Of a stretch of 57,143 bases of DNA, positions 4,034 through 50,688 are shown in pieces. The notes beneath the pieces are model-generated. The model was not told where the DNA came from. It saw only the letters and a program-made list of their open reading frames with translations, and made no database searches. Each line of letters begins with the position of its first letter. Position 1 is the first letter of the stretch. The DNA is from a virus. A program made the translations under genes and the position numbers. The stretch spans positions 1 to 57,143 of the IMG/VR virus record IMGVR_UViG_3300003886_000028; one strand, written 5' to 3'.

Positions 4034-7000
4034 CTACTGGTCGTTGACTCGCTCGTTGTAGAGCCGGTTAAACTGATTCATCGTGTCCTTGATCTCGTCC
4101 CCAATATTGCTGATCTGGCGTTTCTTTTCTGCGTCTGACAGATCCGATTCGTCAATTCTATTACGCTCTTTGCGCTGTTTCATGAGGTAGCTATCGGATT
4201 TGCGACGTTCCCCAATCAGGGAATATTCGCCCCATCGAGCTTCCTTTAGTTCTAATTCAGCGTCGATGTTTTTGGTCTCGATGTAGTGTTTTGCTTCTTT
4301 TTCGGTGATACGGACCGCATCGGCATTACGGTAGTACTCCTGGTACAGCGTACCGAGGCCGGGCTGGCCATAGAGTTTACGAAGCAGCGGAATCTCGTAG
4401 GTCTCAATCTCATCGCCTTTGAGGGCCTTGATTGGCGTGGACACCGTGTCTGCGATGAATCGGCCCGCACCACCGGTGACGTTATCGATGATCAGGTCGA
4501 TCATTTCCGGGTTGATATCCACGGTGCCGCTGCGGAATTCATTACCGCCAGTCAATTCATTGAGTTTTTCGGCGACCCACCGCGACGGCTCGCGAACGCT
4601 ATTCCAGTATTGCTGTGATTCCGGGGCATCGACATCGAAAGGATTGCCCTCGGGGCGCAGCGGGCGTCCGGCCCAGTCTTTGTTCTCGCCCCACTGAACG
4701 ATTGGGTCCGTGATTGTGGGTGAAATGATTTGCCCCAGCGAGGCATCACCACCGATCGGATTGAAAGAACCGGCCACCGATGCGGCCACTCGAAGCGCGC
4801 CAGCGCTGGCCTTAAAGTTCTTTTTGGTCGCAGCCTCACCTGTGACCTGCCCCATGACGTGGAACACGTTGTAGCCCCAGGGCAGCGGTATCTTGACGTA
4901 ATCACCCTTGCCGCCTGGTAGCATGAAAATGAGGTTTCGCTCCTTTACGTGGTCCGGAATCTTGTCGTAGCGATTCTTGCCGTCCTCATCGTCTCCACCC
5001 ATTGCTCGATTCATGATGTCTAGGAATGTGGCGAAAACAATTGTGGCACCAATCAACACTCGTACCTTCGGGCTTTTAGCAGCGCCCACAATGATCCGGG
5101 CCGAGCCTTGAATGCTGGCGTTATAAAACAGCCACAGCGCGTTCATTATCTGCCCGTAATCGCCTTTGCGGTTGAAGTTGACGGTCAGTTCTTTGGCGAG
5201 CCTCGCCGACTTGCCCACGCTGATGCCTGCCCGACGCGCATGAACGAAGGCCGACAGCCGAACCGCATTCTCGACAGCCGTGTTCTCGTTCTCAATAAAC
5301 TCAAACAGGGCGCGCACCGATCGCTTCACCTTCAGCAGCGGCACGTCTCCTCGCAATTCTTCAACCCTATTGCGCAGCCGATCCTCTTTCTGGGAGATAT
5401 CGCCGTACAGGCCGAGCCATCCGGTTTGAGCGCCCGCTTTTCGGAACTCGTCAAATTCCTTGGCCCACGGATGATCTTTTTGGCTCTGAAACGCCCGAAT
5501 ACCACGCCACGCCTTACCGACGTCCTTGATGATGGTCCATTTCAGACTATCCACTTCCGTGGACGACAGGTTATATCCCGCGGTCTGTATGTCGCGGAGA
5601 AAGTTTGAAATTATGAATTCGGGGTTGTAGCCGGTGTTGATTGCGGCCAGATACCGCATGACCCGCGTCAACACGTTTATGATCGGTCCGGAGTTGTTGG
5701 CGCCCAGACTCTTCATTGCATGGGCAATGCGCATAGCCTCGTGGCTGCGCTGGTTAAACGTGACCGTGTGATCTTTGCCGGCAACCTTGACGACCAGTAC
5801 GTTATCGGCGAACTGGAACCCGCGGTGCGGTTTGTAAACCACCAATCCCTCGGCATCAAAGGTTGCTTTGAATTCGACCTTATCGACCGCGTACAACTCC
5901 TCGTTGGGATTGTTCTGGGCAAACCTCAGCATAGCCTGTGCCACTTTATTCTTCTCGGCCCGGATCAGGGTTGCCTCATGCTGGGCAGTGAGGTGCGACA
6001 GAATGCTGACTACCTCACGCTTAGAGCCTGCGCGGCGCTTTTGACGGCCCGTGACAGAGAATCCCTTGCCACGCTGTGGCGGGGTGTCTCCGAAGCCCTC
6101 ACGTTGCAATGGCACATAAAATTCGTAGGTCGATTCCCACTTTGCCACGGTTTTGGCCGTTTCCAGGCCAGATTCCACCAGCAGCTTGCGCTGGCTCGCA
6201 GTAATAGCATCGGTTAGTGCGGCAATCTCCTCAAGTTTTTGCAGATCACCCGACGCTTCGAAGTCGGCGATAATCGTGGATGCCGCCTCATTGGTCATGC
6301 CGCTCAGTCCATCGTTATCCTTTAGCCCGCGCGATTTATCGCCATCTTCACCAATATTGAGGTCTTTTTGCGGATCGATGGGATTGATGCGTTTGAGTTG
6401 GGCATTGGCTTCTGGGGCATGGCGGGCATGCAGATACGATTCGACATCCTCAATGTCGAGGCCTGATTCGCTGATTTTCTCCACCAACGGGTCAACGTGA
6501 TCGCGCTGAAAGTCCTCGATCGCCGCGCCAGCCATACCGTGGTATCGCAGTTCTGACAGATAAGCGTCTTCGGGTTCGGCAAGCTCTTCGAGTCCCCTCT
6601 CTTTTGCCGCCGTCTTCTGGGCCTTGTACAGATAATTGAATTTGTCCTGGAAGCGGAATATTGCCTCGGACAGGAACAGATTTGATTGTCGGTCTGGGGT
6701 TGGCTCAGGGGCCGTCTCCACAGACTTGCGTGGGCGATTCGGATTAAAGTCGCCGGGTTGAAGTGCTAGGCGACCTTCGGGAGAATTATCTTCTCTATAC
6801 TTGACAAGGTCTTTCCGAGTCAATACCTTGTCCCTGTAGCCCTTGACCTCCTGCAGCCCAGGCAATCGCAGCCCGGAACGTCCAGATAGGTCAAGGGTTT
6901 TTCTTTGGTCAATATATCGTAACAGTCCGTCCTCCACCCACCGTTTTAGAGGTGATTTTCGACCATCTTCGTACACGCTAACAATTAAGGTGGTACCACC

Positions 7001-10000
7001 GTTTGGTCGAGGCGCAGCAATTATACGAACAAGAGACTCGCCGACTGGGTCGGGTGCTATAAAAACTAACCGCCCAGGTTGAGTCTCAGATTCAAATACC
7101 AAGGTAGGGTTCTCCAGCCAGTTTGGTACTTTTTTCCAGTCTTCCGCAGTCAACCGATGATTAAACCTGCTGGCCGATACCTTACTCTCCACAAGGAAAA
7201 CGGGACCATCATCAATCCCGTGCATTGCCAAAACATCGCTGCGATCAAGTATTCGAACTCCAGTTGGGTCGGGTTTTTCCCCGGCAAATAGTTCATCAAT
7301 TCTGGACTCATAGATGCGGCGTGTATCGGCCAGTAAAGTTAACCTTTGACGCTTCTCATTAGCCGCCACTCCATCCCTCCGCCCCACCTCACCTCGATCG
7401 ATGCGCCGGAAGATATCGCCCGCACTCTGGAATCCAGCGCCGCGCAGCGCATTGCCGAGGGCTTCCAGAAATTCGCTAATTCTCTGGAAGGCGGTTTTCA
7501 GGAAACCCCTGGCTTGTTTCTGGCTCGTCGACCAGTCGGCGTGCAAGTCCGCGATCGCCTCTTCAACCAGCTGTTGCTCGGTGAGGTTGCGGCCGCTGTA
7601 CCGCTGGCGCACGCTATCCATGCGATCCTCCGCGGCACGCGCCAGCGCGGTCCATTCCGCGGTCCGGATCACCCCGATGTCTCGCAGGGCGTGAATAACC
7701 TCATGATCCATGACCCATGCCTTGTTCGGGGCATCAGCAGCCACCTCGATCAGGCGACCCAGATAACGGCCCTGTGCGCCAGACATGGCTGAACCAGCAC
7801 TGTTGCGAATCTCGTCAACCAGTTTGACCGCGACACGATCCGTGATACCCACCTTATCGAGCCGGGCCTTGAGGTCGGACTCAATCGCATCCGCTTTGCC
7901 GGCGACACCTGGCTGAAGCGTGAACAGCGGTAGCCCGAGGAGGGCTTGTTCGCGCATCGCGGGGGTGATTTGAATGGAGTGTACATCGATGCTTTCACGG
8001 CCAGCATCAACCCTGCGCTCGATGTATTGAGTAGCCTCAACATGGCTTTCAAACGGCCCTTGACGGGGCGTGTTCAGGCTTTCTACCCACCAGTTGTTAC
8101 CATCTTTAACGACTTCATATATTGCGCCCTCGCCAATACCAATAGATTCCACCTTAACGGCTCTATCCAGCTTTTTGGTGACTTTGCTGAACAGGTTTCG
8201 CAGCGTGCGATCGTAGAACCCCTTCATACCTTCGCCGCCAACCCTGAGGTCGAGGCCTGAGAGTCGCCGCCATGTCTTTTCGTCCGCTCGCGGAGACGGA
8301 GCGCCCTCACCGTTAATTATTTTCTCGGCAACATCCTTACCAACGATGTCTTCAAGTTCTTCGGGCTTTACGGCCTTACGATCAAAGACAATGTTGCCAC
8401 CGCGGTCTCTGGCGATAACAGCGTAGTTCGAGCCGTTTGGCTCAAAATCGATGTATTCCAGCCGTTTCGAGAGGTCGTATCGGTCTGCCTGCTGCTCCCC
8501 CGTGGTCCATGCCACCTGGTCGTAGCCACCCTCGGCCGCCATGCGAATCACCCGCTTGATTGCCAGTTCAACCCAAGCGTTGCCTTTGAATGGGGCGTCG
8601 GGGACCATTTCGTTCTTACCAATCCGAACATGGCGTGCGTCCGAATTCATCTCTTCCAGATAGGATAGTTGCTGAGCTGGACCCATGGCCGCCCAGTCCA
8701 CATCGGTAATGCCAAAGAACCTCTTGGCATCATCAGGTGTGAGTGGTTTATCAGATCGATATCCTTTGCGACGACCCGTTTGATGCCAGTCGCTCTGCAG
8801 TTCTTCGATGAATAGCACCTTCTCACCGTTCGGGCCGGAGCGATCGTTCAGGCGTACATGGGCGAGTACGTTGGCAGTATCGAAGTGGCCATCAATAAAA
8901 ACCCCGGCATCACGAGAGGCCAAGGGACTGCCAGGGGAGTTTGGATCAATATCCTCGCGCCGCGGCAATGTGAGTAGGACTTCGCGATAGTTCTCACCAC
9001 CTGGCAAAACGTGGTCTTGGTATTTGGTGGTTGTAAAATCGTCCGACATTTGTCGGCCAATCGCCTGTTTCAGACTTTTCGGTAAGTCGTCAAATTCAAT
9101 CTCATTGCCCTCTGGGTCCAGGTAGAGAGCCACTTCAGCATCGCTGTTGTCTAGTGTGTAACCTTCCCGGGCGAATATTTCCACCAATCCAGCGTTGCTG
9201 CTTTGCAACGTAACGTCTTCGACGCGCACCCCGTTGCCGGCGAGATATTCCACAATTTCGGCCTTGGTTACCGCACCTTCTTGGGTTGCGAGCCATTCCT
9301 CAATGCCGGTCCACTGAATTTCCTCGGCCTTCACACCGGGCTGCTTTTTCAGCATTGCCAGCATTTGATCGGGTTGGCCCTTCGCCTGTTTCAAGCCTTC
9401 CGCGGCGCGCGCCAGCGATGAGAAGTACCACGGCGCGTCGTCACGCAGCGAAAACATTTCAACGCCTGTGGCGGTCTCGCGGGACTCAATGGTCTCGAAC
9501 AAGTGATCGAAGGCAGCGCGGATCACCGGGATCTCAGCGGGCGTCGGGTAGGGATAGCCCGCCGCCTCTCCGGTGTTCTGGAATCCCATGCTCAGCGCGG
9601 CCTCGGCTTTCCAGTACTGCTCAGAGACGATATTCGCGAGGTAATCGTTCGAGGCGCCCTGGTCTTGCAGTTTGGCGATGATGTAGCTCTCAAACGCCCG
9701 GGCCGTCATTTCCCGGCCGGTTGACCAATACGCGTTGGTGCGGCGTTTATCAATCGACTCCGAGCGCTGTTTCAGGCTGGTCTGACTGATCGCCTGGACC
9801 ACGCCGTCAAAGGCTTCCACCACCTCGGGTCGGACGCCCTCACCGCGCTGTACCGCGTCTTCGCTGAGGAAACCATCGTTCTGCCCCCGGTTGCGGGAGA
9901 AGTAGTTGTCCATTGAGTGTAGCCACTCGTGCGCCAGCGAGCCCGATCCGGAGCGCTTGGTCAGATTGATGACCACCGTATCGGCTTCGAAGTGTGCTGC

Positions 10001-13000
10001 CGCCGCGCCAGCCCCACCGGTACCACGAGCTCCAAACGCCAAACCGAGGCGGCCATTCAGCGACAAGGCCTGAGCCGGCACGTCGAGCACGCCGGCGAGG
10101 TCCATCAATGCATCGTAGGCGCTATTCAGGTCCTGCTGGCGGCGCTTGCCCTCTACGTAGTTACCGAACTGGACTCCGCGGAAGCCGAAGGTCTCGGCGA
10201 ACACTGTTGGGGTGACGTCGGCGCCATCCCGATGATCCGAGCCAACCCGCGGCGCATTCTCGGGCCGTCGATCGGCAGGCAGTTCTTTCCAGCGCTTGAA
10301 GTCCGACACCAGTGCATCATGATTTTCATCGAGGTACTTGCGAGCCTCTTTGATGTTGTCGAACTCACGCAGATCGATCCGGTCCTTGCCCAGTTTCTTA
10401 CCGATGACAAATCGCCCCGCCTTCGGTCCGCGGCGATAGCTGTAAATGCTGAATTTGACCTGCTTCGAGGCCTTGGGCTGAGTATCGATGTTGTCGAACT
10501 CGGCCTTGAAATTCCCGATTGCGGCGTCTCGGGTATTACCCTTCGCCAACTCTATCGGCCAATTGCTGAAGGCAGTCGCCTTGGCGGCACGCGATACGGT
10601 CCAGATAACTTTGGGAGGATTGTACTTTTTGCCACCAAACAGGGAATATTTACCCTCTCTGAGCCGGATACCCTTCAACGATTTGCTGTGTCCCACGGCT
10701 TGATAAAGGTCAATGCTGGCATCGAGTTCGGTACGCAGGGTCAGAAACTCGGCGTTGTTTCTCAGCTTGGCAGTAATTGTGTCTTGCGTCAGCGTGCCAT
10801 CCAACACTTGACGCGCCATTTCCCGCAGCACTTTGGTTTGTTCAACCCAGCGCTTTGCCTTCCACGCCTTTCTAGGCTTGTTGGGAACCGTGTCTCGTGC
10901 GGTGCGGATGAATGCTACAGACCACGGATCCGCGCCGGCCTCCAGCATTGTCTCGTAGTTCGGAGCCGGCCAGGATTTCGAGAGCGGGACGACCGCAACA
11001 TCCAGTTCAGCGGCTTTGGTGAGATTGTCCTGATAAGCCGCCCAGACGTGTTTGCGGGCGCCGGTCAGCACTTCCCCGAAGTCTTCGATATCTGCCGACG
11101 GCTTGGGTGTCTTCTTTGGCGCATCCGTGAGGTCCGTTTGCTGGCGGGCCTGGCTGAACAGATCATCCGGCTTGCCGGTCTCGATCGAGTCCTGTCCGGT
11201 ATTTCGGCCCGTATCGCGCTTACGCTTCTCGTCAGCGAGCGCCTGCGCCGCCACAGTGTCATCCCCGAGCAGGTCGGGCTGAGTGGCTGGTGGTGTTGAT
11301 GTGGCGGTCTCAGGGGCGCTCTGCGCCGTGAGGGTTAACTCTTCACTGGGTTCTGCAGGCGTTTCAGCACTCGCTTGGCTGCCCGCTGCAGCTTTCTGAC
11401 TCGCGGCAACGAGGTCACGGACCCCGGCGATGAATCCGGCGTCGTCGTCTTCGAATCGTGTGGCGAGTCTTTCGACCGCATCTTCGTCAATCTCCGTCGC
11501 CGTGGCGACCAGTGCTACGTCATCCGCATTTTGAGGTGTTTCGTCGAGATCCTCAAACGCGAGTTCTTCGGGCGTCGGGAAGGCTTTGGTAAGTGTGTTT
11601 CTCTCCTGGGCGACCTCAACCAGAAAATTGAAATATTCTCGCGGCTTCGTGCCGAGGTACTTACCCGCCAGTCCTTTGTCGATTATACGCTCGGTTTGAG
11701 CCTCATTGTAGTTCCCGGGACGTCCTTTCCACCAATCCGCTTTTGGCACCCATGGCGTGCGGCCAGTGACCTCACCATCCTGATCCATCAACACGCGGCC
11801 GCCAATCTCTGCCCATCCCGATTCGCCCTTCATTATTTCCAGGGAATCGCGCACCTCACTGGATATCTCACCAGCCGGCACCGGGCTTGACAAATCTGCG
11901 GTTGCTTGACTTTCCACGGCTTGCGCACTTTCAGCCAGTCCACCCTCGGCACTCGGAAACTCGGGGACTTCTTTGAGCAGCTGTGCGATCGGCGCGTCGA
12001 GCCGGATCACACGGATATCTTTGCCGGCCTCCACAGCCGCCAGCCATTGGTGGTGCCCGTCGAGAACATTGCCCTCCCTGGAGACCAGTATGGCGCGATC
12101 CCCGCCCTCGAAGGCCATGGCCTTTCGGACCTTCTTTTCGGAGAATTCGGCTTGCGTCGGTTTCAGTGATATCGCGGGCACAGTCTCCTCAACACCTGCG
12201 ATGTCGCGGGCCTTCAGGAAATTGGCCAGAGCACCGCGATGCTCGGCTTTGATTTGCGGCATTTCGGTACGGGGCACATTCAGGGAGCCGCTGGTCTCGG
12301 CAAAACTGACCCATTCATCGTCGATGCGTTCACCGCGCAAAGCATTGGCAGCACCGGATTCAGCAGTTTCAGGTGTTAATGCACCGCCGGGGTCGGCGGC
12401 TGTGTCTGCACCAGGTACACCATCCGCATCGCTTTTGTCAGTCGGGGCGGTAATGGTTCGCAGTTGCTGCTCCACCGGCTCAATGCTCGCGCCTCGTTCC
12501 GGGTCACTAGCCGGTGCTGTCGCGCCAGGTTCAGTGCCTCGTCGAACGTCATTACGAAGTTGTGGTAGCTGATCAAGGCCTGTCTCCTCTGGAGCGATGG
12601 CAGCGACCGGTGTTAGTCCTTCAACATCGAGAGCGGGCTGGGTCAGTATTTCATCCCGTGGTGGCTCAATAGGCCTCGCCGGCGTTTGGGTTGTGTCTGG
12701 CGTTTCTTCACGACCGGGCGCGGTTGGTTCGATGGTAACGGCTTCAATACCTTGGGCTTCATCGGTTTGTGGCGCATCTTTTACCTCGATTGGGGCGATT
12801 CTACCCCGTAGTGTGTCAAACGGTTCCGCAACGGTGCGGCCATCGTCGTATTGCAGTTTCGCCCCGATAACCCCGTCTTGCTCATAGGCGTCGATCACGG
12901 TGGCGGGTTCTCCGGATACCGTGATTTGAGTCCCGATTTCGGGAAATCCTGCCCGCACAAGCATTTCTGTCGCGGCCTGCTGGCCCAACGCGTCTTGCAG

Positions 13001-14320
13001 TACTGCTCTGCCGGAACTGATCAATTCGTTGGGTATCGGGCTGTCCAGGTCTTCCTGTGAGAGCGGGTCCACCTCGGTGCGCGCCCGCTCACGTTCACCG
13101 ATTGGCTGTAGCGCGATGCCATAGGCATCCGCAATGGCCGCTGGCGCGCTTCGGTTATCACGTAGAAAGTCACGTTCCGCGGTTTCTGCCTCAGTCGGCG
13201 CCTCGATGGCCTCGAGGGTCTGAAGCCGCTCATCGGCTAATTGGGCGACCTCTTCGATGGGTTTTGGGGCGCTATCGGTGTCGGGTGTTGTATCCGGCGC
13301 TGTACCGCCTGCGCCGCGCCGCCGACCTGGCAATGCCAGCGTAAACAGTGTTTCCAATATGGCACCAGTGGTGAAGCCCACGGCGCCTTCTTCAACCCTT
13401 TCCGTGGTCCACACTCCGCGCTCCGGGTCGTACAGCTTTTGGGCAACCGCGGCATTCATAATGCCGGCGAACGATTCCTGGACCGCCTCTTCAGTGCCTT
13501 GTCGAACCGCACGTGCCAAGTAGCGTTTGATTACCCCTCCGCCTACCTTATCAAGCCGGTTAAGCAGGTTACCTACCGGAATGGCTTCGGTGGTGCCAAT
13601 GATGGCGCCCAGTTTTGAGGCTTCCAGCGCGGTCGCAATATCAGCACCCGAATCTATGGCTTGTTCAAATTGGTCAACACTATTAAGCGATGACCCCAAT
13701 ACTGCCGGCGCACCATAGGTCGCCAGGGCGGATGTGCCCACTACACCTCGGGTAACTAGCGCGGCGGAAACAAACCCCAGTGCCGAACCCAATCCCTGCG
13801 GCACTTTTGAGGTCCAAAACTCATCCTGCAACGCGGGATCGACGGGAAACTTGTCGGCGATGAACTTATCGATTGCGTTGCCGGCTTTGTATAGCGCTGA
13901 TTTTTGGGCCTTTTCCGCCTGTTCTGTCCACTGCGTGCGAACTTGCTGGCGCTGTTCGGGACTGGCCGAGGTATAGCCCTCATAAAATGACGTCAACGGG
14001 TCGGCCAATTCAATGACGCCAGCTGAGCCGGCGTATTGCGTTTTTGGCCGATAGGGTTCACCCCTATCGATGCGATCAAGGTTCCGCCACACCGACGGCT
14101 CTGGAGTGGTGGCCAATGCCAAAGACTTTGGGATCCCGGATACCACGCTGCTGAACCCACGAACCAGCGAACTCGATGCGGTACGCGCGCGGCCTGGCGG
14201 CACCTCAGCACCGCTAATAGGCGTTAAACCGGTGGTGTCGAGTTCCGTCAGCCCACCCGTATCCAGGCTGTTAAGCCCGGTGGTGTCGAGTGGTTTTAGG
14301 CCGGTAAGGTCTAGTGACAT
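4034..14320 (-). CDS. Giant polyvalent internal virion/ejection protein (3,428 aa)
   Basis: This is the largest gene. The N-terminus has short LDTTGL-like repeats (residues 1-33). A ParB/sulfiredoxin-like motif (VLDGHHQWLAA, Asp754-Gly-His-His) lies near 750. An LPD5-like region (about 1370-1440) leads into a zincin-like HEWLH at 1464-1468. A conserved ELQSDWHQTGR motif is at 1840-1850, a second zincin-like motif HEVIH at 2206-2210, and a BECR/MuF-C-like nuclease-type segment near 2380-2520. An LPD38-like region (FNRKGDYGQIMNALWLFYNAS, about 3045-3150) is near the C-terminus. This multi-domain build is the polyvalent-protein pattern described for phages and conjugative elements, whose products are injected with DNA to counter host defence. 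Domain names are from memory. The ejected role is inferred from the family and from its place at the end of the virion genes. Confidence 0.85.
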   Translation of the reverse strand: MSLDLTGLKPLDTTGLNSLDTGGLTELDTTGLTPISGAEVPPGRARTASSSLVRGFSSVVSGIPKSLALATTPEPSVWRNLDRIDRGEPYRPKTQYAGSAGVIELADPLTSFYEGYTSASPEQRQQVRTQWTEQAEKAQKSALYKAGNAIDKFIADKFPVDPALQDEFWTSKVPQGLGSALGFVSAALVTRGVVGTSALATYGAPAVLGSSLNSVDQFEQAIDSGADIATALEASKLGAIIGTTEAIPVGNLLNRLDKVGGGVIKRYLARAVRQGTEEAVQESFAGIMNAAVAQKLYDPERGVWTTERVEEGAVGFTTGAILETLFTLALPGRRRGAGGTAPDTTPDTDSAPKPIEEVAQLADERLQTLEAIEAPTEAETAERDFLRDNRSAPAAIADAYGIALQPIGERERARTEVDPLSQEDLDSPIPNELISSGRAVLQDALGQQAATEMLVRAGFPEIGTQITVSGEPATVIDAYEQDGVIGAKLQYDDGRTVAEPFDTLRGRIAPIEVKDAPQTDEAQGIEAVTIEPTAPGREETPDTTQTPARPIEPPRDEILTQPALDVEGLTPVAAIAPEETGLDQLPQLRNDVRRGTEPGATAPASDPERGASIEPVEQQLRTITAPTDKSDADGVPGADTAADPGGALTPETAESGAANALRGERIDDEWVSFAETSGSLNVPRTEMPQIKAEHRGALANFLKARDIAGVEETVPAISLKPTQAEFSEKKVRKAMAFEGGDRAILVSREGNVLDGHHQWLAAVEAGKDIRVIRLDAPIAQLLKEVPEFPSAEGGLAESAQAVESQATADLSSPVPAGEISSEVRDSLEIMKGESGWAEIGGRVLMDQDGEVTGRTPWVPKADWWKGRPGNYNEAQTERIIDKGLAGKYLGTKPREYFNFLVEVAQERNTLTKAFPTPEELAFEDLDETPQNADDVALVATATEIDEDAVERLATRFEDDDAGFIAGVRDLVAASQKAAAGSQASAETPAEPSEELTLTAQSAPETATSTPPATQPDLLGDDTVAAQALADEKRKRDTGRNTGQDSIETGKPDDLFSQARQQTDLTDAPKKTPKPSADIEDFGEVLTGARKHVWAAYQDNLTKAAELDVAVVPLSKSWPAPNYETMLEAGADPWSVAFIRTARDTVPNKPRKAWKAKRWVEQTKVLREMARQVLDGTLTQDTITAKLRNNAEFLTLRTELDASIDLYQAVGHSKSLKGIRLREGKYSLFGGKKYNPPKVIWTVSRAAKATAFSNWPIELAKGNTRDAAIGNFKAEFDNIDTQPKASKQVKFSIYSYRRGPKAGRFVIGKKLGKDRIDLREFDNIKEARKYLDENHDALVSDFKRWKELPADRRPENAPRVGSDHRDGADVTPTVFAETFGFRGVQFGNYVEGKRRQQDLNSAYDALMDLAGVLDVPAQALSLNGRLGLAFGARGTGGAGAAAAHFEADTVVINLTKRSGSGSLAHEWLHSMDNYFSRNRGQNDGFLSEDAVQRGEGVRPEVVEAFDGVVQAISQTSLKQRSESIDKRRTNAYWSTGREMTARAFESYIIAKLQDQGASNDYLANIVSEQYWKAEAALSMGFQNTGEAAGYPYPTPAEIPVIRAAFDHLFETIESRETATGVEMFSLRDDAPWYFSSLARAAEGLKQAKGQPDQMLAMLKKQPGVKAEEIQWTGIEEWLATQEGAVTKAEIVEYLAGNGVRVEDVTLQSSNAGLVEIFAREGYTLDNSDAEVALYLDPEGNEIEFDDLPKSLKQAIGRQMSDDFTTTKYQDHVLPGGENYREVLLTLPRREDIDPNSPGSPLASRDAGVFIDGHFDTANVLAHVRLNDRSGPNGEKVLFIEELQSDWHQTGRRKGYRSDKPLTPDDAKRFFGITDVDWAAMGPAQQLSYLEEMNSDARHVRIGKNEMVPDAPFKGNAWVELAIKRVIRMAAEGGYDQVAWTTGEQQADRYDLSKRLEYIDFEPNGSNYAVIARDRGGNIVFDRKAVKPEELEDIVGKDVAEKIINGEGAPSPRADEKTWRRLSGLDLRVGGEGMKGFYDRTLRNLFSKVTKKLDRAVKVESIGIGEGAIYEVVKDGNNWWVESLNTPRQGPFESHVEATQYIERRVDAGRESIDVHSIQITPAMREQALLGLPLFTLQPGVAGKADAIESDLKARLDKVGITDRVAVKLVDEIRNSAGSAMSGAQGRYLGRLIEVAADAPNKAWVMDHEVIHALRDIGVIRTAEWTALARAAEDRMDSVRQRYSGRNLTEQQLVEEAIADLHADWSTSQKQARGFLKTAFQRISEFLEALGNALRGAGFQSAGDIFRRIDRGEVGRRDGVAANEKRQRLTLLADTRRIYESRIDELFAGEKPDPTGVRILDRSDVLAMHGIDDGPVFLVESKVSASRFNHRLTAEDWKKVPNWLENPTLVFESETQPGRLVFIAPDPVGESLVRIIAAPRPNGGTTLIVSVYEDGRKSPLKRWVEDGLLRYIDQRKTLDLSGRSGLRLPGLQEVKGYRDKVLTRKDLVKYREDNSPEGRLALQPGDFNPNRPRKSVETAPEPTPDRQSNLFLSEAIFRFQDKFNYLYKAQKTAAKERGLEELAEPEDAYLSELRYHGMAGAAIEDFQRDHVDPLVEKISESGLDIEDVESYLHARHAPEANAQLKRINPIDPQKDLNIGEDGDKSRGLKDNDGLSGMTNEAASTIIADFEASGDLQKLEEIAALTDAITASQRKLLVESGLETAKTVAKWESTYEFYVPLQREGFGDTPPQRGKGFSVTGRQKRRAGSKREVVSILSHLTAQHEATLIRAEKNKVAQAMLRFAQNNPNEELYAVDKVEFKATFDAEGLVVYKPHRGFQFADNVLVVKVAGKDHTVTFNQRSHEAMRIAHAMKSLGANNSGPIINVLTRVMRYLAAINTGYNPEFIISNFLRDIQTAGYNLSSTEVDSLKWTIIKDVGKAWRGIRAFQSQKDHPWAKEFDEFRKAGAQTGWLGLYGDISQKEDRLRNRVEELRGDVPLLKVKRSVRALFEFIENENTAVENAVRLSAFVHARRAGISVGKSARLAKELTVNFNRKGDYGQIMNALWLFYNASIQGSARIIVGAAKSPKVRVLIGATIVFATFLDIMNRAMGGDDEDGKNRYDKIPDHVKERNLIFMLPGGKGDYVKIPLPWGYNVFHVMGQVTGEAATKKNFKASAGALRVAASVAGSFNPIGGDASLGQIISPTITDPIVQWGENKDWAGRPLRPEGNPFDVDAPESQQYWNSVREPSRWVAEKLNELTGGNEFRSGTVDINPEMIDLIIDNVTGGAGRFIADTVSTPIKALKGDEIETYEIPLLRKLYGQPGLGTLYQEYYRNADAVRITEKEAKHYIETKNIDAELELKEARWGEYSLIGERRKSDSYLMKQRKERNRIDESDLSDAEKKRQISNIGDEIKDTMNQFNRLYNERVNDQ

Positions 14321-18802: not shown

Positions 18803-19398
18803 GTCGTGCTGCCGTCTCCGGATACGCTTATTTGTGCCGTATCGAGTAGCGTGCCGCCGCTGGAGGCGTTGTAGAAATTGAGCGTGAACGTAGCGTTTTG
18901 GACTCCACCAAAAGCAGAACTCACCCCGATGTCAAAGTTTCCAGCTCCCAGGTTAACGCGCCCCGCTCCAATATCGTCGGTATCCAGTGTTCCCGAGTCA
19001 ATCGTTCGCTCAACCCAGACAGCGCTAGCGGCCCCACTCTCCAGCCAAAGCTCATTTGCGATTGAAAAAAAACCATCCTCATTAGACTGGTAATAATTTC
19101 CATCGGAACTTACGCGAACATTAGCAACCGCCACGCCCTCAATAATTCTTTGGGTTGAATGAAATTTATTCGCCAATTCCACGACCAGGCTTGAATAGAA
19201 CTGCCGCAACGTACCGCTGTCGTTGATCCAGCCTGTCTGAATCTCACGCAGCGTGCCGCTATCGTTGACGTAGATCCCGGTGATTTCACGCAGCGTGCCG
19301 CTGTCGTTGACGTACACGCCTTGGGCAGATACCAGCGAGGTGGCCAGCATTAGCCCCAACGCGAATCGTCTCGCTATTGTGGCGAATCGTTTCATCAA
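18799..19398 (-). CDS. Exported fibre-like protein with YVNDSGTLREI repeats
   Basis: This 199-residue protein starts with a classical Sec-type signal peptide (basic MMKRFATIARRF, hydrophobic ALGLMLATSLV, cleavage near SAQ-G). Three copies of a ~15-residue repeat follow (VYVNDSGTLREI, IYVNDSGTLREI, GWINDSGTLRQF; about 28-68), then a beta-rich domain. The repeats resemble short beta motifs of phage tip/fibre proteins. It is coupled (ATGA, 19395-19398) to the fibre gene upstream. A signal peptide on a fibre-like protein is unusual. Confidence 0.75.
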   Translation of the reverse strand: MMKRFATIARRFALGLMLATSLVSAQGVYVNDSGTLREITGIYVNDSGTLREIQTGWINDSGTLRQFYSSLVVELANKFHSTQRIIEGVAVANVRVSSDGNYYQSNEDGFFSIANELWLESGAASAVWVERTIDSGTLDTDDIGAGRVNLGAGNFDIGVSSAFGGVQNATFTLNFYNASSGGTLLDTAQISVSGDGSTT

Positions 19399-34050: not shown

Positions 34051-34598
34051 GATCCCGGTTTCCACAGAATTGATCCGCCGTCACCCGACCCGCCGCCGCC
34101 ATTCGAGGCTGCACACCACACCACGCCATAGCGCGGGATTGCTGCGGGTGTCCATGATCCACCGTCGTTCGTACTGATGGGCAAATTGTCCCAACACGGA
34201 TGCGTGAATGACTCTAACGTCCACTGCGAGGAGAGCGTGGTTCCCGGAACATCATTGTTGGTCCAGACCCTGTTACCGCGACGCTCCAACAACATTACTG
34301 TTCTATCGTTACGTGGATCGATCAACAGGTGGGCACCAGCATTGATGTCGCTCTGTACGCTAATTGGGAGCGGTACGAGCTGCGGTGTCGCGCTCGGATT
34401 GATCCCATAGCTGGCCGGAATGACAATACCGTCCAGCGAGACGTCGCGGCCTGAGCCGAAAAACACGACGTCATGGCCGGGAATATACAAACTGCTGTTG
34501 TGGTTTCGGTTACCGTAGGGCGGTCCCAAACCAAAATTAGCGCCCTGTGTCCAGGTTTGAGCGAGTTTGTCGAACCACGCAAAACGCAGTCGAACCAC
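34047..34598 (-). CDS. C-terminal part of a frameshifted kelch/propeller-like protein
   Basis: This 183-codon frame reads RFAWFDKLAQTWTQGANFGLGPPYGNRNHNSS, then GHDVVFFGSGRDVSLDG and a C-terminal GGSILWKPGS. It looks like further blades of the propeller begun in the frame at 34322-35581. The two frames overlap across an exact 20-bp tandem duplication at 34570-34609. Removing one copy joins ...AYSSVRFAWFD to KLAQTW... in one frame. It is unlikely to be translated by itself from a good ribosome-binding site. Confidence 0.6.
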   Translation of the reverse strand: MVRLRFAWFDKLAQTWTQGANFGLGPPYGNRNHNSSLYIPGHDVVFFGSGRDVSLDGIVIPASYGINPSATPQLVPLPISVQSDINAGAHLLIDPRNDRTVMLLERRGNRVWTNNDVPGTTLSSQWTLESFTHPCWDNLPISTNDGGSWTPAAIPRYGVVWCAASNGGGGSGDGGSILWKPGS

Positions 34599-35581
34599 GC
34601 AAAACGCACTGAACTGTACGCGAACAGCCCTGGCCTGCCTGGCCCCATTAGATTTGGATGATACGCCGCACCTGGATTAGGGCTATCCGTTGACCAAATG
34701 TCGAACGCCGCTAACGGCAAATCAGTCCACGTGTCGGCAGATCGTGAATAGTGTCGGATCGTGCGCGTTCGGACGGGTGCTGCGGTGTGACCGTCCTCGA
34801 CATGGTAGTAATCGCCCGGATCATCCGTGTGATCAAATGCTGCAGTCCAAATATGCCCAACCTTGCCTGGCGTGACATCCAAATTGGGTGAGCGCCATGT
34901 ATTTGTTTGTTCATCGTAAATAAAGTGTCTGGCCGCTCCCCCACTCTGCGCTTTGCCCATATACTGCAATTCACGATTCTCGTTATCCCAAAACGCGGTG
35001 CGGTTCTGCCACGAAATATCGAACGCCTGGCTCTGCGGATTAAACGCAATCGCATCGGCAGTCCACGCACCGTTTGCCAGTGCCGCTGCGGCCAGTTCCA
35101 GCACAGAGCCGCTAAATGTACTCGGCGGCGGGATGTATTGTTTGGAGAAAATCAACTGATCGTATTTTTGCCAGAAATCAGTCGCGATGTTAAATCCATT
35201 GTGAAATGTGCCTAAGATTGTTGCGTTCCACGCATGTGGGTCAATTTCCTGATAATCAATCACTTCTGATTGGGCATCGAATATTGTCGTATACGTTTTC
35301 TCACCTGCGCGTACACGCCTGACAACAATTCGGGTGGTCGCGGCGAGTTCATCACCCGGTCCGACTTGGTACAGGTAATGGATCCATTCATCGGTAATGT
35401 GCGGAACGTTGGGTACAACAGTCGTCGTAGACTGCCCACCGGCTTTGTACAAATCGAAATCAACACTATTTTCGTAGTTGGTAACCAGTTCCTGCGCGGT
35501 CAGAGAACGTTGGGTTCTTGTTAGATATTTTATTTTTCCACCGTCAATCCCGACCGGTATTCGCCGCGGGTCTAACTTCAT
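34322..35581 (-). CDS. ConA-like lectin plus kelch-like propeller protein, frameshifted
   Basis: The start is the ATG at 35581, coupled as ATGA to the upstream stop. The first ~150 residues read like the second half of a ConA-like lectin/lyase sandwich (RIPVGIDGGKIKYLTRTQ; HITDEWIHYLYQVGPG; WQKYDQLIFSKQYIPPP). The rest holds kelch-like blades (AFDISWQNRTAFWDNENRELQYMG; TIRHYSRSADTWTDLPL). After the 20-bp duplication near 34590 the frame runs into unrelated sequence and ends. The first half of the lectin domain is in the upstream frame (35578-36141), so this gene is probably broken on both sides. Confidence 0.65.
   Translation of the reverse strand: MKLDPRRIPVGIDGGKIKYLTRTQRSLTAQELVTNYENSVDFDLYKAGGQSTTTVVPNVPHITDEWIHYLYQVGPGDELAATTRIVVRRVRAGEKTYTTIFDAQSEVIDYQEIDPHAWNATILGTFHNGFNIATDFWQKYDQLIFSKQYIPPPSTFSGSVLELAAAALANGAWTADAIAFNPQSQAFDISWQNRTAFWDNENRELQYMGKAQSGGAARHFIYDEQTNTWRSPNLDVTPGKVGHIWTAAFDHTDDPGDYYHVEDGHTAAPVRTRTIRHYSRSADTWTDLPLAAFDIWSTDSPNPGAAYHPNLMGPGRPGLFAYSSVRFAWFDCVLRGSTNSLKPGHRALILVWDRPTVTETTTAVCIFPAMTSCFSAQAATSRWTVLSFRPAMGSIRARHRSSYRSQLAYRATSMLVPTC
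34570..34609 (-). repeat. Exact 20-bp tandem duplication causing a frameshift
   Basis: The unit tcgaaccacgcaaaacgca plus one base (g, then c) occurs twice back to back (34570-34589 and 34590-34609). Twenty bases is not a multiple of three, so the second copy shifts the frame. RFAWFD is encoded once in each frame across the duplication. The near-perfect identity points to a recent slippage event. Confidence 0.9.
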
Positions 35582-49062: not shown

Positions 49063-49111
49063 GTTATAAATAAAACCCACCGTTTCATTATTGCTCGTGG
49101 AGAATACCGCC

Positions 49112-50356
49112 GTGATTAAAAAATTGACCAACAAACAGAAAAGCACATTTTCACATTACATACGCAAATGGACCGCCATCGGGTTATCAACAGATCGCAT
49201 TAATAGAAAAAAACACAACCACGCGATTAACGGCGTCTATGCATTGGCTGGGTTAGGTTGCCCGAAAATTATTTATACACCGTGTCCTCTTAGTGCGGCT
49301 TTGGCAGCAGCCATTTATGCTAAGTATGTAAACGATAGTTCAAACTCAGCGGTGGAATCAGCGGTGAACTCAGCGGTGGAATCAGCGGTGGAATCAGCGG
49401 TGAACTCAGCGGTGGAATCAGCGGTGGAATCAGCGGTGGAATCAGCGGTGGAATCAGCGGTGAACTCAGCGGTGGAATCAGCGGTGGAATCAGCGGTGGA
49501 ATCAGCGGTGCACTCAGCGGTGCACTCAGCGGTGCACTCAGCGGTGGAATCAGCGGTGGACTCAGCGGTGCGCTCAGCGGTGCGCTCAGCGGTGCGCTCA
49601 GCGGTGAACTCAGCGGTGGAATCAGCGGTGGAATCAGCGGTGCGCTCAGCGGTGCGCTCAGCGGTGAACTCAGCGGTGAACTCAGCGGTGGAATCAGCGG
49701 TGGAATCAGCGGTGGAATCAGCGGTGCACTCAGCGGTGATCAGGTTCCAGTCTTATTTGTGGGGCAATCAATGGGCTGGTTATGCTGCGTGGGGAGAATT
49801 TTTCCGCGACCAATGTGGTGTTGACGTAAATAATGACTGTCTGTCGATGATGAGAAATGGCCACTATATATGGCCATTTAAGAATGTTTGTTTTGCGTCA
49901 GAAAAACCAATAGCAATTCACACGGATGATCAGGGCCGCAGTCACTGCGAAAATGGCCCCGCGGTGGAATACGAATCCGGTTGGGGCGCGTATTGCTGGC
50001 ACGGTACGAACATTCCGCCAGAATGGGTGTTAGATAAACCGCCTTCTGCTGCTGCAGCCATTCGTTGGAAAAACATGGAACAACGCCGCGCCGCCTGCGA
50101 AATTGTTGGCTGGGTTAACATCCTGGAACAACTGAACGCCAGAGTAATCGACAAACACATCAATCCTATGGTTGGCGAACTCTTAGAGGTTGATATTCCC
50201 GATGTTGGCCGCGAGAAATTTCTCAAGGTCATGTGCGGAACTAATCGTGAATTTGCATTACCTGTACCCCCAGAAATGAAAACCGCGGAGGAAAGCCAGC
50301 GTTGGCTGAATTTCGTGCCTGATAATATTGACTTTTTACCAGAGGTGAGAACATGA
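49112..50356 (+). CDS. DUF6745-like protein with hypervariable SAVx repeat tract
   Basis: The start is a GTG at 49112 with GGAG nine bases upstream. A TTG 21 bp earlier is less likely. The 414-residue product has an N-terminal helical part (VIKKLTNKQKSTFSHYIRKWTAIGLSTDRIN). Residues about 79-210 consist of 33 SAVx tetrapeptides, and a C-terminal DUF6745-type domain follows (SHCENGPAVEYESGWGAYCWHGTNIPPEWV; RWKNMEQRRAACEIVGW; ending DIDFLPEVRT). Serine, alanine and valine codons never vary (tca gcg gtg), while x is E, N, H, R or D. DUF6745 proteins have no established function. It is coupled to the next gene by ATGA. Confidence 0.8.
   Translation: MIKKLTNKQKSTFSHYIRKWTAIGLSTDRINRKKHNHAINGVYALAGLGCPKIIYTPCPLSAALAAAIYAKYVNDSSNSAVESAVNSAVESAVESAVNSAVESAVESAVESAVESAVNSAVESAVESAVESAVHSAVHSAVHSAVESAVDSAVRSAVRSAVRSAVNSAVESAVESAVRSAVRSAVNSAVNSAVESAVESAVESAVHSAVIRFQSYLWGNQWAGYAAWGEFFRDQCGVDVNNDCLSMMRNGHYIWPFKNVCFASEKPIAIHTDDQGRSHCENGPAVEYESGWGAYCWHGTNIPPEWVLDKPPSAAAAIRWKNMEQRRAACEIVGWVNILEQLNARVIDKHINPMVGELLEVDIPDVGREKFLKVMCGTNREFALPVPPEMKTAEESQRWLNFVPDNIDFLPEVRT
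49346..49741 (+). repeat. 33-copy 12-bp coding minisatellite
   Basis: The unit is tcagcggtgNNN. The nine constant bases are identical in all 33 copies. NNN is gaa 16 times, aac 6, cgc 5, cac 4 and gac 1, with atc in the last unit. There are no spacers. The perfect identity of the constant part points to recent expansion or frequent homogenisation. The array length is a multiple of 3, so copy-number change keeps the frame. Confidence 0.97.
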
Positions 50357-50688
50357 AAACTTTTAAAGGATTATACGTAGCACAAGGCGATCTGAACATA
50401 TTCTCAGTAAGCGAAATCCCCAACCGCTTGACAGAAAAGCCAGCAGAAAACGGTCAGCATACGCTGGCTCACAGTGAGACAGGCCACCACCACGTCATTG
50501 ATGGCAACACTGTGCGCGTCTACGAGCAAGATGAATTCATTTCTTTTATCGATGTCGAGGAAAAATCAAATGTTGTGCATCTGCGTGGTTTCGATACACA
50601 CGAAACGATAGTTCTGCCACCGGGTAAGTATCGCGTCTCGCGACAGCGCGAATACACAGCCGAGGGATTTCGCTTAGCCGCCGACTAA
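50353..50688 (+). CDS. Partner protein of the DUF6745-like gene
   Basis: This 111-residue protein (MKTFKGLYVAQGDLNIFSVSEIP...HTLAHSETGHHHVIDGNTVRVYEQDEFISFIDVEEKSNVVHL) has a beta-rich, cupin-like pattern with ETGHHHV as a possible metal site. Proteins with QGDL...ETGHHH often accompany DUF6745 genes, which supports joint action. The start overlaps the DUF6745-like stop (ATGA). Confidence 0.7.
   Translation: MKTFKGLYVAQGDLNIFSVSEIPNRLTEKPAENGQHTLAHSETGHHHVIDGNTVRVYEQDEFISFIDVEEKSNVVHLRGFDTHETIVLPPGKYRVSRQREYTAEGFRLAAD

Follow-up and report, generated by a model that had tools for sequence, protein, structure and literature searches.

The window analysed here, that is, the whole stretch of 57,143 bp, is an IMG/VR virus record carrying genes for capsid and portal proteins, a methyltransferase and an endolysin-like protein. 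The portal protein has its closest relative (31%) in a Pseudoalteromonas phage, and the minus strand encodes, at 4034-14320, a 3,428-residue virion-type protein (phrog_616) with an endolysin-like stretch. The gene under study (49112-50356, plus strand) is a single open frame of 414 residues. It starts at a GTG (49112), 9 bases after a GGAG at 49099-49102, with a TTG at 49091 as alternative start, and the protein opens as the rest of its family does (I.KLT.EQ). Two conserved domains flank a tetrapeptide array. The N-terminal domain of about 75 residues (49112-49345) contains a motif common to dozens of phage homologues and closes in a predicted helix that leads into the array. The array itself comprises 33 SAVx units (49346-49741). 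It is followed by a DUF6745 domain (Pfam PF20530; 49787-50308, residues 226-399), recognized with 69.5 bits against a curated cut-off of 27 (E 3e-19). A second gene, encoding a 111-residue partner protein (50353-50688, plus strand; phrog_27831, E 4e-5), starts in an ATGA overlap with the array gene.

The array occupies 396 bases, exactly 33 in-frame units of 12 bp, each made of TCAGCGGTG plus one further codon, which we call x. The initial annotation described three frozen codons and one variable codon, and this was borne out base by base: the core is invariant in 33 of 33 units. The x codon is GAA in 16 units, AAC in six, CGC in five, CAC in four, GAC in one and ATC in the last one, in agreement with the annotated restriction to E, N, H, R or D, with I in the final unit. 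Its third base is A in GAA and C in all the others. TRF reports the array as the top tandem repeat of the window (period 12, 32.8 copies, score 534); further tandem repeats are a 42-bp unit present 2.7 times at 19205-19316 and an exact 20-bp unit present twice at 34569-34608. Since the order of x is clustered (15 identical neighbours vs 9.2 expected, P=0.007), unit copying has shaped this array. A simple-repeat phase-variation (contingency) locus with frame switching was rejected, because a 12-bp unit keeps DUF6745 in frame at any copy number.

Structure prediction by AF2 gave a pLDDT of 91-97 for residues 1-70, the N-terminal domain. For two family members, both terminal domains were modelled confidently and the array was modelled as long helices of low confidence (pLDDT about 40-60), the helix ahead of the array pointing towards or into it. 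These models weakly predict that the array forms a helical scaffold. Foldseek returned no match below E 0.9 in the PDB, VIA-align gave no Z of 5 or more, and PDB profile searches with DUF6745 and the partner protein as queries yielded no sequence relative. In a viral structure library, confident matches were limited to relatives of DUF6745 and to phage fragments that are uncharacterised. The array also gave weak matches in Pfam, PHROG, NCBIfam and PADLOC (among them DUF445, MSCRAMM and a nicking endonuclease), which were discarded as low-complexity. No paper in the literature searched mentions DUF6745, and arrays of this type appear to be undescribed there, the mycobacteriophage case discussed below aside.

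Viral contigs were scanned with a degenerate pattern of four SAVx units, which yielded at least 119 stretches. From these and a few cellular ones, at least 76 loci with mixed-x arrays were obtained; in most of them the array is preceded by this N-terminal domain and followed by DUF6745. When the DUF6745 alignment was the sole query, blind to the array, 80 loci were recovered, nearly all with arrays and at the same position. The array types in these 80 loci are SAVx, [DG]AVx, [DAG]QVx, SQLx/GQLx and [DA]SVx; an SSLx array is present in phage MW202476 and a QLx array in the Mycobacterium prophage prophiGD102-1, resident in M. abscessus GD102. Mycobacterium sp. E1747 likewise harbours a prophage of this array-bearing kind. 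The closest relative found of the window protein (L002, 60%) has only 2-3 units, with serine encoded as AGT. Unit number thus spans from 2-3 in L002, through 33 in the window, to 56 in L013, with the qualification that many arrays terminate contigs, so that truncation or partial misassembly may affect the long ones. The architecture was also seen in Actinobacteria and Rhizobiales, on prophages or plasmids. Complete genomes of E. coli gave no match, and no close cellular relative was found when the whole window protein was the query.

Four of the 80 DUF6745 loci (L238, L293, L260 and L269) contain no in-frame array, and array-less members include LMM01 gp174 and proteins of Nonomuraea, Mycolicibacterium and Streptomyces. 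In L238 (downstream of 3986) and L293 (downstream of 4079), the array-less DUF6745 is followed by a separate QLx ORF of about 60 codons, beginning MNSIKDQL... and MMSSVRDQL..., respectively, which looks like an array provided in trans. L018 and L096, at both ends of contig IMGVR_UViG_3300002460_000076, show a SAVx array of core TCCGCAGTT without DUF6745, located in a short protein ending in LERWEE. Pairs such as L012/L029, L017/L050, L032/L085, L074/L078 and L097/L102 correspond to viral contigs with both ends inside an array. Arrays thus cause breaks or false circularisation in assemblies, and they could pass for terminal repeats.

The partner protein carries the motif QGD ... SETGHHHV ... 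H ... RQREY, and the family alignment shows GD, GHxH, H, EH, PGxY, RQREY and a final D as invariant. This pattern of residues suggests a metal-binding, cupin-like fold. A partner-gene HMM built from the family was run on the 80 DUF6745 loci. The partner adjoins DUF6745 in 52 of them (34 downstream, 18 upstream) and lies elsewhere on the locus in another 10; in 17 of the 18 loci without it, the N-terminal side leaves the contig or too little sequence is available for a test. The two-gene operon is conserved. The HMM also matched at three cellular loci that lack an array, L316, L317 and L318. In L318, the array-less DUF6745 of Streptomyces cadmiisoli lies near genes of the STM4014/STM4015 families, with the partner relative just upstream. 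The partner family is nearly always found together with DUF6745, and Pfam gives only a sub-threshold match to DUF4399.

The distribution of the operon bears on the idea that it is a prophage-borne defence or toxin-antitoxin cassette, in which the array would sense invading phages. Array-less DUF6745 genes with the same partner family are present on actinobacterial chromosomes and plasmids, and several matches lie in bacterial genomes, as a cassette of this kind would predict. However, array-bearing copies are found mostly in phage contigs, the window copy belongs to a phage genome that has capsid and portal genes, and PADLOC families match only as low-complexity overlap with the array. We consider this interpretation improbable.

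Variation within the unit was measured in 89 arrays with 8 or more units (1,972 units), taking the majority base of each array as reference. The percentage of differing units was 1.3, 11.6, 3.0, 0.3, 0.3 and 1.3 at positions 1-6, and 0.2, 0.0, 0.3, 39.4, 31.9 and 2.4 at positions 7-12. The value at position 2 reflects the alternation of D, A and G in the non-serine array types. Synonymous third bases of the core therefore vary by 0-3%, against 39% and 32% for the first two bases of the x codon. Where the x codon has the form NRY, its third base departed from the majority of its own array in just 2 of 1,559 units. The control consisted of 96 arrays of cellular origin that match the same DNA pattern. 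They are PTAE-type repeats in another frame, obtained from a genome-contig pattern scan, and showed 29-42% variation at the bases left degenerate. Loci of this kind (L126, L130, L148, L159 and others) are clostridial ORFs of 1,500-2,700 codons, partly composed of PTAE tetrapeptides, with synonymous codons free. Substitutions spread evenly over the unit, which would have contradicted the initial annotation, were looked for in the homologues and are not what the 89 arrays display; its description of a constant scaffold with one diversified residue is supported.

There are 37 distinct core words among 104 arrays, and hence no sequence-specific constraint acts on the DNA of the core as such. Within a phage the copies of the core are homogenised, between phages they drift apart, and x remains mixed. 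Since whole-unit copying should homogenise x too, its mixed state points to diversifying selection on x or to a site-biased mutator. The x alphabet is narrow: D, G, R, Y and H in SAVx arrays, G, E, W and R in SSLx arrays, and R, G and W plus D/A/G in the SV and QV types. The same classes are encoded by GAC/GGC/CGC/TAC in SAVx, GAG/GGG/AGG/TGG in SSLx and GGG/CGG/TGG in QLx. Selection on x is supported by this recurrence of the same chemical classes through different codons, and by the near absence of aliphatic residues.

Close relatives allowed arrays to be compared with their flanks. Four loci from four metagenomes (L258, L255, L256 and L259) show one substitution in 4,067 bp of downstream DNA, one pair having in addition a small gap, and the array of L258 diverges from those of the other three from the fourth unit off the flank, within 96 bp of unique sequence. 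In L276 and L277, 4,079 bp of downstream DNA are identical and the arrays share only their last seven units. L281, L289 and L309, apparently isolate genomes by their identifiers, are 98-99.8% identical downstream, with arrays of roughly 39, 5 and 56 units. Thus, the proposal that length and order vary in frame more than the flanks holds, and by a wide margin, for close relatives such as the L258 group and L276/L277. A pure assembly artefact is an unlikely source of these differences, as they begin within 96 bp of unique flank and Tweety-type isolates behave alike; it was rejected as a general cause and is possible for arrays that end contigs.

Copying of units is evident in part of the family. 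Blocks of x are shared beyond chance in some pairs (14 units in L063/L058), and some relatives have in common long x-blocks that include the marker units LAVG and SALY, which implies copying. In other pairs the shared blocks are at chance level (6 units in L054/L013 vs 5.4 expected), and neighbouring x residues are random family-wide (363 identical observed vs 362.7 expected, 59 arrays). L118 is a hybrid array, with 17 units of one core and 22 of another and with G, D and R in both halves, and L261 and L294 differ in array type with flanks 82-83% identical. Arrays are thus recombined and replaced as modules. Two arguments of the initial annotation have to be revised. It reasoned that slippage would copy the variable codon too, and copying of x does occur (HHH, RRR and shared blocks). 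It also suggested that the order of x encodes target specificity; some relatives with near-identical flanks share x-blocks no more than by chance, which means that no fixed order that could be read is conserved, and no support for a code was obtained. We regard as very improbable a linear recognition code in which every unit displays one of about four residue classes, the sequence of x fits a target (a polymer or a repeat protein) and a dedicated process free of reverse transcriptase rewrites two bases per unit.

Turnover of this kind could be all there is to explain if the array were a passive in-frame minisatellite, a flexible or helical spacer whose length matters because it sets how far apart the two domains lie, and in which polar x residues are merely tolerated and copies are identical because they are recent. 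The wide range of unit numbers agrees with it, as do the runs and block duplications in L217, L031, L037 and the window; moreover, Tweety escape mutants alter copy number, for which the authors propose juxtaposition of the end domains (PMC9262239). However, a tolerated x predicts equal variation at synonymous sites, which is not observed in the 89 arrays; the narrow x alphabet is reached repeatedly by way of different codons, and several close pairs have no x-blocks beyond chance. A mere spacer is therefore unlikely, although it deserves some weight.

Alternatively, a mutator acting on two bases of each unit could rewrite x and leave the core protected, similar to a diversity-generating system without its known parts. 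Ten of the 12 bases of the unit are frozen and two variable, the order of x is random across the family, and near-identical phages often carry arrays unrelated in order, all of which would fit. Nevertheless, no reverse transcriptase (PF00078) was detected in any of 24 phage records, which include the window and of which several are fragmentary. The adenine-to-any signature by which diversity-generating retroelements are known is also missing, with A at the first variable base in 30 of 1,307 cases in SAVx arrays. The long blocks marked by LAVG and SALY indicate copying, and the near absence of hydrophobic codons means that selection acts in any case. A mutator has, in our opinion, little chance of being the explanation. 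A diversity-generating retroelement proper was rejected, given the 0 of 24 records with PF00078, a first variable base that is rarely A and a second that is almost only A or G.

The nearest known counterpart is gp54 of mycobacteriophage Tweety, whose family (Cheoctovirus) includes Che8 gp57 and PMC gp51. Its unit consists of GCC GCA and two variable codons with fixed third bases (PMC2884959). In the Tweety-type records the 12-bp unit reads [S/Y]-A-A-x, with x being W, G, R, E, Q or D and third bases invariant. Unit number and order differ between phages whose N-terminal DNA is 97.5-100% identical (see also PMC2884959); DeadP and Taj, with terminal segments 100% identical, have 38 and 30 units vs 48. 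Two reviews by authors close to the discovery describe gp54 as a counter-defence protein tunable by repeat number and state that escape mutants obtained on bacteria that express the Phrann (p)ppGpp-synthetase defence had changed their number of repeats (PMC8549241, PMC9262239). The window array shares the design of the Tweety type: a 12-bp tetrapeptide unit whose core and third bases are frozen and in which one or two codons vary. In its family, too, unit number and order are variable. In contrast, the terminal domains are unrelated: gp54 contains no DUF6745, a Pfam search of gp54 gave no match, and hhalign of gp54 against the flanking domains of the window protein gave probabilities of 0.3 and 1.8, at which no homology is detected. 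Besides, no such partner gene has been noted alongside gp54, which is known in mycobacteriophages only. By its anatomy, the window protein may work like gp54, from outside the gp54 family and on a DUF6745 body. The primary paper on Tweety counter-defence is reportedly Dedrick 2017.

More distant parallels exist. The zinc-finger minisatellite of PRDM9 and the repeats of TAL effectors consist of near-identical units in which the residues that contact the target vary and the rest undergoes concerted evolution. Their units are of 28 and 34 residues, with known structures and DNA targets, whereas the window unit has four residues, and they are not homologous to it. Bordetella phage BMP-1 has a variable number of short in-frame repeats (VR2) in the non-essential gene bbp36 (PMC2884959), but that unit is of 24 bp, against 12 bp here, and no single diversified codon has been described in it.

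Taking these data together, we propose, with a probability of about 0.6, that the array is a protein-level interaction module, tunable in length and composition, which evolves by unit turnover and diversifying selection and is likely used in conflict. The unit [S/D/G/A]-[A/S/Q]-[V/L]-x would form a constant, probably helical scaffold exposing one residue, drawn from a small alphabet of acidic (D/E), glycine or small polar (G/N), arginine, and aromatic or histidine (Y/W/H) types. Frequent duplication, deletion and exchange of units between arrays would keep their synonymous sites homogeneous within a phage, and diversifying selection would keep x varied despite this homogenisation. Changes in the number and kind of units could then retune binding to a variable defence or anti-defence protein of the bacterium or of a prophage. 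By comparison with Tweety, the array is probably used in phage-host or phage-prophage conflict; a counter-defence role of the DUF6745 array protein is proposed by analogy only. The analogy may fail because the flanking domains of gp54 are not homologous, and the ancestral function need not be counter-defence, since array-less homologues lie beside the same partner family on chromosomes and plasmids.

In summary, the Tweety-type array is no curiosity, as the same genetic design recurs on an unrelated protein body and in a conserved operon in scores of phages. If the array tunes specificity, phages would have in it, without any known diversification enzyme, a compact and evolvable recognition module built of 12-bp units.
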